This document shows positions 50,674-55,969 of a DNA stretch of 64,000 nucleotides, one piece after another. The stretch's first letter is position 1, and every line of letters starts with the position of its first letter. The stretch is taken from positions 227,912-291,911 of the forward strand of contig CAKSZL010000003.1 of assembly GCA_934525625.1 (NCBI GenBank), read 5' to 3'. The stretch comes from an uncultured Burkholderiaceae bacterium (lineage in GTDB: Bacteria; Pseudomonadota; Gammaproteobacteria; Burkholderiales; Burkholderiaceae_B). The notes under the pieces were generated by a model that was given only the letters and a program-made list of their open reading frames with translations, was not told the DNA's origin and did not search any database. The position numbers were made by a program, and so were the translations under genes.

Positions 50674-51169
50674 GCTGTTCCTGCTGACCTGGCCTCCTGA
50701 AGATTCCGAGCCCCTGTGGGTTTGTCGGTGTGGCCAGGTAGGTGGGTGCTTCGGTTGTTGCCGCCCGTCCTGTCAGTTCGTCGCCCTTGCCGGCCTGGAG
50801 CTCGGGACGACACGATGGATAGGGGGAAGCTTTGTAAAAGCCGGCGCAGTTGGCCGGCTTTTATGAACACCCCCTATCCAGCGGGGCGGCACGTGCTACT
50901 GTCGGCGGTTTTAGGGCGACGAACTCACAGGATGGGCTACCCAGCAACACCAGATCTGCCGGGACACACCGGCCGCGCGGCGAGCGCCTCTTGCCGCGCC
51001 CAAGGCGCGGCACCAACTGGCCGAAGGCCCCAAGCAAACGAAGTGCGCAGCGCCGGCGCCGCCGGCGCGAAGGCGTGAGGGATGGAAGCCCGCCAGGGGC
51101 GAGACAGGCCGCGGGCCTGGCTCGATGCGCAGCACGACAGCCCGGCCCGAAGCAAAGCATAGGGACACG
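50674..51169 (-). ncRNA. 495-bp folded element, copy 1 (candidate structured RNA or ssDNA promoter)
   Basis: A GC-rich noncoding block repeated at 55476-55969. Stems visible in copy 1: ACCTGGCC/GGCCAGGT (50687-50694 with 50732-50739); a 24-base pair of arms at about 50763-50786 and 50914-50937; TGGATAGGGGG/CCCCCTATCCA (50816-50826 with 50870-50880); nested inside it TAAAAGCCGGC/GCCGGCTTTTA (50835-50845 with 50853-50863); TGCCGCGCC/GGCGCGGCA near 50992-51012; and GCGCCGGC/GCCGGCGC near 51048. Paired changes between copies keep the 24-base stem. It lies 36 bases upstream of the 50638 start on the minus strand. Strand is inferred from that position. Confidence 0.75.
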
Positions 51170-51170
51170 C

Positions 51171-51560
51171 TCAGGTGTCGCTGCTGCTGACTCCGAGCAC
51201 ATCCAGCCGCCCGTTGTCATACATGTGCATCATGGACAGCAGGTATGTCGGATCGGCTGGCCAGCCACATGTTTGCCATTTGCGCTTGAGCACAGCCTTC
51301 ACGGGGCCAGGGTAGCTGCGCAGCTTCTGGCGGGCGCGGCGCCAGTCGGCAGCACGGCGCTTACGCTCGCGCATGGCCTGCTCGGCCCAGCGCCTGGCTC
51401 GCGCCATCATTTCATCGTCCACCGGCAGCTGCTGCGCGGATATCTGCTCAGCGAAAAGCGGGTATTGCTCCAGCTCGCGGCGCAGCTTACGCGCGTAGGC
51501 GAGGCGCTTGCGCCGGGTGTCCTGGAAATCGTAGTGGTCGAGTTTTTTGAATCGCATCAT
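51171..51560 (-). CDS. Hypothetical basic protein
   Basis: A 129-residue Arg-rich helical protein (RRKRLAYARKLRRELEQYPL, ARARRWAEQAMRERKRRAAD) with a C-terminal part AVLKRKWQTCGWPADPTYLL. Not recognised. Its start overlaps the previous gene's stop as ATGA, and its end touches the folded element, so it closes the ssb-led leftward operon. Confidence 0.6.
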   Translation of the reverse strand: MMRFKKLDHYDFQDTRRKRLAYARKLRRELEQYPLFAEQISAQQLPVDDEMMARARRWAEQAMRERKRRAADWRRARQKLRSYPGPVKAVLKRKWQTCGWPADPTYLLSMMHMYDNGRLDVLGVSSSDT

Positions 51561-51799
51561 CCGCCCTCCCCTGGCCCGTCCAGGCCAGCGGCACGCAGTT
51601 CCGCTGCCGACCAGTTTCGGTGCGCCTTGCGAACCAAGCAGGCCGCCATCGCGGCGGCCTGCTCGCGCACCTGACTGGCGCGCTGCTCAAGATCATCCGC
51701 CCTGGCCAGCAAGCTGCGAATGCCCGCGATGTCTCGCATCAACGGCGTCCCGAGCTCGTGCAACTGCTCGATGGCGGCCAGAGTCTGTTCAATAGTCAT
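51557..51799 (-). CDS. Small hypothetical coiled-coil protein
   Basis: An 80-residue protein made mainly of helices (TLAAIEQLHELGTPLMRDIA, LLARADDLEQRASQVREQAA) with a short C-terminal WSAAELRAAGLDG. It overlaps the next gene by four bases. Function unknown; expressed with the ParB-like gene above it. Confidence 0.6.
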   Translation of the reverse strand: MTIEQTLAAIEQLHELGTPLMRDIAGIRSLLARADDLEQRASQVREQAAAMAACLVRKAHRNWSAAELRAAGLDGPGEGG

Positions 51800-51849
51800 G
51801 ATGTGGCTCCTATTCAGACTGGCCGGGCGCCAAGCGCCCGACCGGGTGC

Positions 51850-54461: not shown

Positions 54462-54890
54462 TCACAGTTCAAACGGGGCGAGATCCAGCGTCATGGCAAT
54501 CAGTCGGGCGCACTCCACGGCCTGCATGGCGAGTTCGCCAACTTCGGCGGATACCTGTTCAAGATGCAGGGTGCTGTAGCGTTTGGCGTAATAAGCGACA
54601 GCACGCAGGGCCAGCCGTGCCGCTTCGGCATCGTTGGCAATCAGCGCATGCACCCAGGCAGCCGAGAACTCGACATAGGCCACGCGGCGCAAGGCCTCGT
54701 CCGCAGCCAAGGGTGAGACGACAGGACGCAGGCCGAATTTGGCCAATTGCTCGGGCTTGTCCCAATCGATCAGCCGGTTGAAGTAGACACGCACGGCATG
54801 CCCGACGAACCACATCAGCTCTGCCGTCGGCGCGACGTTGATCAGCATCGTTGCGGCAAGCTGGGGATTCTGGTTGAGATCGAATTTCAT
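54462..54890 (-). CDS. Hypothetical protein of the ssb operon
   Basis: A 142-residue helical protein (DLNQNPQLAATMLINVAPTA, WFVGHAVRVYFNRLIDWDKP, AARLALRAVAYYAKRYSTLH). No signal peptide or membrane helix. Not recognised. It lies 42 bases downstream of ssb and 17 upstream of the glutaredoxin-like gene. Confidence 0.6.
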   Translation of the reverse strand: MKFDLNQNPQLAATMLINVAPTAELMWFVGHAVRVYFNRLIDWDKPEQLAKFGLRPVVSPLAADEALRRVAYVEFSAAWVHALIANDAEAARLALRAVAYYAKRYSTLHLEQVSAEVGELAMQAVECARLIAMTLDLAPFEL

Positions 54891-54932
54891 GATGGGTATC
54901 CAGGTAGGGGCGGGTTGCCCCGCCCGCATGGA

Positions 54933-55436
54933 TCAGAAAGGAATGTCGTCCAGGTCAGTGCCCGTCATGGGTGTCGGGTCAGCTGGGGTTTCCTTGGGCT
55001 GCGCGTCCTTGGCTTTGCCCTTGGCCCGACCGCGCCGTCCAGCGGCTTGCGGTGCGCTTTCGTCGGCCGAGGCCTGCGGCTGCTCGCCCTGCCCCGCCTC
55101 GCGCCCGCCGCCCAGCATTTGCATGTGCTCGGCGACGATTTCGGTCGTGTAGCGATCCTGGCCGTCCTGGCCTTGCCATTTGCGCGTCTTGAGACGGCCT
55201 TCGACGTAGATGGAACGGCCCTTGCGCAGGTATTCGCCGGCGATTTCGGCCAGGCGGTTGTAGAACACGACCCGATGCCATTCGGTTTCTTCGCGGCGAT
55301 CGCCGGTGTTTCTGTCCTTCCATTGCGACGTGGTGGCCAGGTTGATGGTGCACATCGCAGCCCCTTCCGGGCTGTAGCGCACTTCGGGTTCGCGCCCCAG
55401 GTTGCCGACGAGAATGACTTTGTTGACCGATGCCAT
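54933..55436 (-). CDS. ssb: Single-stranded DNA-binding protein
   Basis: A 167-residue SSB. The OB fold covers residues 1-110 (NKVILVGNLGREPEVRYSPE, EWHRVVFYNRLAEIAGEYL, YVEGRLKTRKWQGQDGQDRY), followed by a Gln/Ala/Lys linker and the acidic tip DLDDIPF that recruits partner proteins. Plasmid SSBs are made early in the recipient to protect entering DNA. It is first in the leftward operon and 40 bases from the second folded element. A tccttg/aaggag site precedes the ATG. Confidence 0.95.
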   Translation of the reverse strand: MASVNKVILVGNLGREPEVRYSPEGAAMCTINLATTSQWKDRNTGDRREETEWHRVVFYNRLAEIAGEYLRKGRSIYVEGRLKTRKWQGQDGQDRYTTEIVAEHMQMLGGGREAGQGEQPQASADESAPQAAGRRGRAKGKAKDAQPKETPADPTPMTGTDLDDIPF

Positions 55437-55475
55437 GACGTTTCTCCTTGAAAAAAGCGCTGTTGCGCAAAAAAA

Positions 55476-55969
55476 GCTGTTCCTGCTGACCTGGACTGGT
55501 GATTCCGAGCCCGGTTGTTAAATCGGAGTGACCAGGTAGGTGGGTGCTTCGGTAGTTGCCGCCCGTCCTGTTTCATCGTCGCCCTTGCCGATCTGAAGCT
55601 CGGGACGACACGATGGATAGGGGGAAGCTTTGTAAAAGCCGGCGCGGTTTGCCGGCTTTTATGAACCCCCCCTATCCAGCGGGGCGGCACGTGCTACTGT
55701 CGGCGGGTTTAGGGCGACGTTGAAACAGGACGGGCCACCCCAGCGACACCAGACTTGCCGGGACACGCCGGCTGCGCGGCGAGCGCCCCTTGCCGCGCCC
55801 CAAGGCGCGGCACCAACTGGCCGAAGGCCCCAGGCAAACGAAGTGCGCAGCGCCGGCGGCGCCGGCGCGAAGGCGTGAGGGATGGAAGCCCGCTAGGGGC
55901 GAGACAGGCCGCGGGCCTGGCTCGATGCGCAGCACGACAACCCGGCCCGAAGCAACGCGCAGGGACACG
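55476..55969 (-). ncRNA. 495-bp folded element, copy 2 (upstream of ssb)
   Basis: The second copy of the element at 50674-51169, in the same orientation. It keeps ACCTGG/CCAGGT, TGGATAGGGGG/CCCCCTATCCA, TAAAAGCCGGC/GCCGGCTTTTA (loop changed), TGCCGCGCC/GGCGCGGCA and GCGCCGGC/GCCGGCGC. In the 24-base stem, the middle changes from tcagtt to ttcat-type sequence while the opposite arm changes to match. One-base insertions shift any reading frame. Minus-strand transcription through it would give the ssb leader. Confidence 0.75.

Follow-up and report, generated by a model that had tools for sequence, protein, structure and literature searches.

The Frpo1 and Frpo2 elements of plasmid F are described as required single-strand promoters, and their deletion abolished the early signal of leading genes in vivo (PMC9849209). 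The ssi2 and ssi3 sites of the IncI1 plasmid ColIb-P9 are likewise described as single-strand promoters of leading genes (PMC7736820), and Frpo homologues are reported to be widespread, with 13,089 of them in 6,006 of 21,907 potential conjugative elements (PMC11541004). Published surveys have used resemblance to known Frpo sequences, or criteria concerning boxes and folds (PMC11541004, PMC12826799). The CUP elements of IncN plasmids are non-coding repeats that stand in one orientation at the 5' end of operons in the leading region (PMC5371602), and their promoters are described as containing ArdK-binding sites and core promoters (PMC6289460, PMC5371602). Here, two repeated elements are analysed in 64,000 nucleotides (nt) of DNA from an uncultured Burkholderiaceae bacterium (contig CAKSZL010000003.1, positions 227,912 to 291,911, forward strand), a stretch called the window below, and each of them is probably a Frpo-like single-strand promoter of the leading region of an integrative and conjugative element (ICE). 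CUP elements were reportedly described in plasmids R46 and pKM101 by Delver and Belogurov in 1997, and no link between Frpo and CUP was found in print among the literature matches listed, a scope outside which those 1997 originals lie. In PMC2958807, Frpo and CUP appear only as two separate references.

The two elements (Table 1) are direct repeats, as the initial annotation had proposed, with 88% identity between 50712-50942 and 55510-55740, 90% between 50940-51001 and 55739-55800, and 96% between 50999-51169 and 55799-55969, and with the described one-base insertions or deletions present in the full alignment. Since the genes that follow lie on the minus strand, the elements are read from right to left, a small correction to the earlier description. 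Each copy contains a long hairpin in which both of the predicted nested inner stems, TGGATAGGGGG/CCCCCTATCCA and TAAAAGCCGGC/GCCGGCTTTTA, were found, and the outer arms also exist but measure 25 nt, not 24. Three arm pairs are changed on both sides in the alignment of the copies (A-T to T-A, G-C to C-G and T-A to A-T). Where copy 1 has a C.C mismatch, copy 2 has T-A, and where copy 2 has the mismatch T.T, copy 1 has a T-A pair. These observations all agree with the initial annotation. The gap to the downstream ATG is short, as claimed, but counts 35 and 39 nt (ATGs at 50638 and 55436, minus strand) instead of 36 and 40. When folded with DNA parameters, the + strand gave z-scores of -8.6 (copy 1) and -9.6 (copy 2), and none of 100 shuffles was as good in either case. 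An Rfam scan of the window at the gathering score, a check that the initial annotation had suggested, returned only two tRNAs elsewhere and nothing on the elements, and the exact 27-base inner-stem pattern had 0 matches in viral contigs. A BLAST search of plasmids with the long-hairpin part gave no match at E-values up to 0.01, and the plasmid matches of the element therefore rest on its distal module, described below.

The surrounding DNA looks like an ICE leading region, and the ICE encodes a relaxase of the TrwC type. A candidate origin of transfer (oriT), at about 49040 on the + strand, is located between the relaxase gene and the first leading gene; the elements lie 1.6-6.9 kb and their modules 2.0 and 6.8 kb from it. 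Its counterpart in plasmid R388 (IncW) is GCACC-GAAA-GGTGC-G-TATTGTCT/ATAG at 16166 + of the R388 record (L095), where we take the nic position to be at the slash, and the R388 modules follow 3.9 and 7.9 kb on. These sites come from one narrow regular expression applied to 14 sources (L001-L010, L051, R46, R388 and the window), which matched once in R388 and three times in the window, two of the latter (897 + and 47062 -) being dismissed by eye; it had no match in R46 or in the relatives' loci among these sources. In R388 as in the window, one strand carries both the oriT-like hairpin and the modules, and the hairpin and nic layout is the same. By analogy, the + strand would be transferred, entering 5' end first and rightwards, and since the leading genes are on the minus strand, the incoming + strand would be their template. 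With an oriT-like site on the + strand, the elements to its right and the genes on the minus strand, the arrangement is that of Frpo elements, which lie in the leading region and have the transferred strand as template, provided that nicking occurs as supposed. Seven relatives of the relaxase (best-segment identity 49-51%) were found in Achromobacter and Bordetella petrii contigs, and in four of the seven the flank examined contained the element, with the relaxase gene on the other strand.

When 268 genomes of a single family were searched with the DNA of copy 2, 80 gave matches, mostly to the distal part, and many of these genomes had more than one. For the hairpin itself, a hairpin-derived motif gave 38 unique matches, of which 37 were aligned in the sense of the transferred strand (alignment A1); the excluded one, L018, is a hairpin remnant that keeps the left arm and has no detectable right arm. 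Covariation was scored on the alifold structure of A1 itself, with slid pairs and shuffles as controls. At 22 pairs, 94.6% of cells were paired, against 34.4-49.7% for slid pairs, 14 of the 22 pairs had double changes (shuffled, 8.5, standard deviation (sd) 1.0), and double-change cells numbered 82 (shuffled, 25.6, sd 3.7); in all five covariation measures, 0 of 500 shuffles reached the observed value. This strong covariation in the wider alignment supports the selection on the fold that the initial annotation had postulated from two copies, and the absence of covariation that it had named as a refutation was not observed. The apex of the hairpin varies between groups, and the arms and the promoter region persist. 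The motif pattern occurred in 6/6 relatives' genomes and its reversed control in 4/6, and counts of such short patterns in genomes therefore mean little.

Each element has, apart from the long hairpin, another conserved structure, the distal module, about 430 nt from the gene. It was modelled as a four-helix fold of 78 positions and 16 pairs (model R1, from alignment A2), with 97.1% of cells paired against 30-47% for slid pairs and 54 double-change cells against 21.0 (sd 3.1) in shuffles, 0 of 500 of which reached it; in two of the five measures, pairs with a double change and pair types, the module was not above shuffles (451 and 478 of 500). A held-out model (R2), built from 26 modules without F, IncN, IncW or IncI sequences and with rough E-values, matched the Frpo2 region (E 2e-9) and the Frpo1 region (2e-5) of F, R46 three times (2e-10 to 9e-7) and R388 twice (6e-5). 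The homology to the F Frpo regions concerns the distal module only, and the published Frpo boundaries may not include it. Because of this homology, Frpo-like leading-region element is the likely name for a fold that the initial annotation had left nameless. F and the window further share the leading-region position, with Frpo2 preceding ssb as copy 2 does, and the distance, the module lying about 465 nt before the gene in F. In R46, the module was found upstream of ccgA and ccgD (ccg presumably standing for CUP-controlled gene), and both CUP and the window have a conserved repeat before several leading operons, in the window as two copies with a shared module. In R388, it lies 594 nt before the zincin-like gene 22591-23484 (-), which we take to be ardC, a name also given in PMC7213743, and 518 nt before 19210-19554 (-). 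ColIb-P9 differs, as a MOBP plasmid in which R2 found no module up to E 1 in 93,147 of 93,399 bases.

Under strict filters, the module was present in 26 of 398 genomes sampled across the phylum, with at least two copies in 11 of the 26, and in 6 of 369 sampled across the class, three genomes being in both sets. Among 72,556 PLSDB records, copy 2 matched 777 and copy 1 matched 805, of which 668 and 692 were typed as conjugative. As to a conserved protein frame, the other refuting case of the initial annotation, no annotated gene lay underneath in 39/40 and 58/60 of the matches listed, the rest being unannotated records (the PLSDB tables are incomplete), and the element of locus L008, used as a query, had one listed plasmid match under an annotated hypothetical protein (H103). 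Gene distances were tabulated by hand for 19 module copies in annotated plasmids, a weak match (L001:15244, 19.4 bits) being left out: 15 of the 19 end 390-610 nt before a sense-oriented gene. In two exceptions (L001:12024 and L002:5412), the next annotated gene is more than 1.2 kb away, and in two others, R46 (L094) 22074-22147 and Klebsiella (L002) 8573-8648, the module adjoins stbC on the other strand and has no sense gene downstream.

The stbC-adjacent copies hint at a role other than promoter, such as priming, and Frpo RNA acts as a replication primer in vitro (PMC7690428, PMC7736820). The elements could accordingly function above all as single-strand initiation (ssi) sites, at which a primase, a primosome or RNA polymerase primes second-strand synthesis, with gene expression as a secondary effect. 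Nevertheless, pure priming needs no coupling to a gene such as that seen in both window copies and in 15 of the 19 plasmid copies, and we consider this explanation unlikely. As Frpo-like promoters, the elements may perhaps be primer sites as well.

Of 21 module copies, 17 were compared for promoter strength and folding in the stretch from module to ATG; the other four have no sense gene nearby and were left out. Promoters were scored with a sigma70 weight matrix, and the ranks of gene-sense scores are relative to complementary-strand shuffles. Strong folds (z -5.5 to -13.8) without an outstanding duplex promoter (best rank 9 of 60) were obtained for the window (2), F (2), B. pseudohinzii (2), pBCJ2315 and P. 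citrulli (3); weak folds (z -1.1 to -2.1) with a strong duplex promoter (rank 0-1 of 60) for R46 (2), R388 (2) and Klebsiella (2); and both features together for P. aeruginosa (2) and P. citrulli (1), with z of -4.6 to -7.8. The R46 and R388 promoters are of the type TTGACT/TTGACA with a spacing of 17. Ordinary duplex promoters under repressor control, like those of IncN CUP, with an incidental hairpin and the KORA-domain protein (62616-62924) as repressor, would fit a module shared with R46 and R388 and a KORA domain encoded in the ICE, all the more as ArdK is a TrfB-family protein that binds the upstream regions called CUP (PMC6289460). In the window, however, no gene-ward duplex promoter stands out (best gene-sense ranks 38 and 45 of 60) and folding is extreme (z -9.0 and -11.4), unlike in the two R46 hairpins scored (z -1.8 and -2.1), in R388 and in Klebsiella; together with the covariation and strand bias of the hairpin, this makes the explanation very unlikely. 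The F elements, scored in the same way, share with the window a transferred-strand hairpin of strand-biased stability and the lack of an outstanding gene-ward duplex promoter. They differ in that the window elements sit in an ICE and are predicted from sequence, and the -35 and -10 boxes are not matched one to one.

A G.T pair is tolerated on just one of the two strands and becomes A.C on the other. On the transferred strand, A1 has 95 G.T against 8 A.C cells, 37 of the 95 coming from one pair that is always T.G, and 38 against 2 in 13 representatives left after dereplication at 90%. In 36 of 37 hairpins, it is the transferred strand that has the lower single-sequence fold energy, a measure independent of the derived pair set. 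Strand excess was also compared with dinucleotide shuffles for 14 hand-picked hairpins of the 37 and 10 other stretches: z was -6.1 and -5.4 for the window copies and -2.4/-2.7 for F Frpo2/Frpo1 (0 of 60 shuffles each), and it was negative in all 14 hairpins, several being weak (L036, z -0.6), as were one R46 (z -0.6) and one R388 element (z -0.9). Folds, covariation and strand tests thus show the stable stem-loop on the transferred strand that characterises Frpo, and because of the G.T bias, the lower energies and the shuffle excess, selection appears to act on the incoming single-stranded DNA rather than on mRNA, a choice that the initial annotation had left between RNA and single-stranded DNA.

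The same tests bear on the idea of an RNA element in the mRNA leader, be it an attenuator, a riboswitch-like or a protein-binding structure. The elements are directly upstream of genes, small GGGC..AATC..GCCC hairpins recur before several of them, and covariation alone cannot separate RNA from single-stranded DNA; yet the mRNA is the opposite of the favoured strand, alifold of A1 in mRNA sense gave 0 consensus pairs, and there was no Rfam match at the gathering score, and this highly improbable reading was rejected. A dispersed, recombination or MITE-like (miniature inverted-repeat transposable element) repeat, to which the two direct repeats and the multiple matches in many genomes might point, is the least probable of all and was rejected, given the fixed place and orientation of annotated cases before leading-region genes and the mostly conjugative type of the matching plasmid records.

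The Frpo-like single-strand promoter is therefore the reading we retain. The position of the elements, their orientation relative to the oriT-like site, the covariation, the strand bias of the hairpin and the module's homology with the Frpo regions of F were observed here, and nicking, polymerase binding, start site, timing and priming are inferred. During conjugation, the + strand would be nicked at oriT near 49040 and enter the recipient with its 5' end first, and the single-stranded element would fold into the long imperfect hairpin, a duplex usable by the host sigma70-RNA polymerase. The 3' arm, with the putative extended -10 TGnTACnGT, would be the non-template strand and the 5' arm the template, and transcription would leave the hairpin base toward the gene, that is, ssb and its followers for copy 2 and the small genes with HicB for copy 1. 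Protective genes such as ssb would be switched on before the incoming DNA becomes double-stranded; second-strand synthesis would then remove the hairpin and turn the promoter off, the same -10 being directed away from the gene in duplex DNA. The RNA may also act as a primer for the second strand, which is reported for Frpo.

The promoter boxes themselves are weakly supported. The -10 motif was sought in 24 hand-chosen loci with a BLAST match in the distal part (19 family-search loci, L046 and four ICE loci), of which L046 was too short and 23 were counted. On the transferred strand, no more than 420 nt from the module, 17 of the 23 and both window copies have TGnTACnGT, against 0/25 on the gene-sense strand and 41/2500 in base-shuffled stretches. 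Several of the 17 loci are close relatives, and L037, L041 and L045 keep the motif though the flanking CGCCGAC is lost. A joint -35/-10 regular expression matched 0 of 25 loci, its spacing not fitting these sites.

Several points weigh against the Frpo-like reading. TGnTACnGT is absent in 6 of the 23 loci, and the -35-like CCCTTGnAG found about 15-16 nt before it in relatives is degenerate in the window. With the sigma70 matrix, 43 of 60 shuffles matched or beat the copy 1 site and the copy 2 site was not the best, the F Frpo control being missed likewise. No sequence similarity was detected between the F Frpo hairpin and the long hairpin of the window. Many of the hairpin homologues are closely related, which inflates the counts, with the same bias in the slid controls; the A1 hairpins were selected by motif, so that the invariance of the motif and of helix 2 (five never-varying pairs) is circular; and the pair set of the strand test was derived on the transferred strand, which it favours. 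For the module, strand preference does not go beyond composition: the transferred strand is more stable in 24 of 28, and the shuffled mean is equally biased (-2.2 vs -1.95).

Table 1. Positions in the window of the two elements, their parts and the associated genes and sites.
Feature	Position	Strand	Remarks
Element copy 1	50674..51169	+ (transferred-strand sense)	upstream of minus-strand genes starting at 50638
Element copy 2	55476..55969	+	upstream of minus-strand ssb series starting at 55436
Long hairpin, copy 1	50763..50937	+	arms 50763-50787 / 50913-50937, 92% complementary; inner stems nested
Long hairpin, copy 2	55561..55735	+	arms 55561-55585 / 55711-55735, 96% complementary
Small hairpin CCTGG..CCAGG, copy 1	50688..50738	+	between long hairpin and gene; seen in folds
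Small hairpin, copy 2	55490..55536	+	between long hairpin and gene; seen in folds
Distal structured module, copy 1	51067..51147	+	78-position model
Distal structured module, copy 2	55867..55947	+	78-position model
Putative extended -10 (TGC TACTGT), 3' arm of hairpin 1	50894..50902	+	proposed non-template strand; not significant by position-weight score
Putative extended -10 (TGC TACTGT), 3' arm of hairpin 2	55692..55700	+	not top site by position-weight score
TrwC-type relaxase	45901..48723	+	PF08751, E 9e-76
Candidate oriT hairpin and nic region	49023..49049	+	GCACCC-AAGA-GGGTGC-G-TATTGTGT/GG; nic (slash) by analogy only
First gene after copy 1	50387..50638	-	83 aa, no family; then 50084-50386, then HicB-domain 49749-50087
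ssb, first gene after copy 2	54933..55436	-	PF00436, E 1e-40
Large ParB_N protein	51850..53808	-	gene series after copy 2
Second-type hairpin, N6-methylase gene	57884..58070	+	gene minus, ATG 57883; fold z -1.5 (14/200 shuffles as good), not significant
Second-type hairpin, ArdB-family antirestriction gene	59861..60044	+	gene minus, ATG 59859; fold z -6.3, 0/200
Second-type hairpin, RadC-like gene (60045-60572, minus)	60573..60760	+	fold z -3.4, 0/200

Hairpins of a second type precede three further leading genes and have the core CCTTKA..GAGAAC..TG..AC..TGG, which was also recognised by eye in other loci (L034, L037, L043-L045, L009, L069 and L086); a loose pattern gave 30 matches, 11 of which were judged by eye to be of the second type. 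The strand test was not significant for them (z -1.3 to -1.5), and a model search of the window found only the two module copies of the repeated elements and none at the second-type hairpins. Anti-defence genes behind single-strand promoters are part of the published picture (PMC11541004), with which these hairpins agree. A small hairpin, GGGC..GATT (AATC on the gene strand)..GCCC, is found near the start of several leading genes (59878-59892, 60593-60606 and relatives), and relatives of the first-type element have GGGCTC..GAATCTTCAG..CCGGTCAGCA at a similar place; this recurrent hairpin is possibly a leader element.

As for the ICE as a whole, an integrase gene follows tRNA-Leu at 15.5 kb of the window, TrbL/VirB6-type and CagX-type transfer proteins are among the upstream genes tested, the coupling protein and the relaxase occupy 44.2-48.7 kb, and a ParA/KorB/KorA block lies at 60.8-62.9 kb. 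A chromosomal site is suggested by an RNB-domain ribonuclease and an aromatic-ring hydroxylase on the left side of the tRNA, and a repeat of the tRNA-Leu 3' end, sought as the right end of the ICE, was not found within the window. The HicB-domain gene and its neighbour (49749-50386, -) match a HicB/HicA-annotated stretch of an Acinetobacter plasmid (65.6% DNA identity), and a putative toxin-antitoxin pair may thus be under the control of copy 1. The gene series after copy 2 includes a KleA/KleC-like protein (51557-51799, -; PF17383, just over the cut-off). An H-NS-family gene (49332-49730, +) directly follows the oriT candidate; plasmids with H-NS rarely carry Frpo according to a survey (PMC12826799), and this ICE would therefore combine the two.

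These results provide covariation and strand-bias evidence for a family of single-strand promoters in betaproteobacterial ICEs. We put forward tentatively, with slightly more doubt than confidence, that one ancient single-stranded DNA module (four helices, about 78 nt), common to MOBF plasmids (F, IncN, IncW, Burkholderia and Klebsiella types), some other plasmids and ICEs, may underlie leading-region expression elements as their conserved core, to which evolution would have added two kinds of promoter, a hairpin active only as single-stranded DNA (F and this ICE) and a repressible duplex promoter (CUP and R388). On the incoming strand, the module would then act as an overlooked site of recognition or loading, for instance for a primase, RNA polymerase or a factor linked to SSB. 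Tying the single-strand Frpo and the duplex CUP and R388 elements to one module raises the question of what reads the incoming strand first, and the module model offers a means to locate leading-region operons, which often have anti-defence functions.

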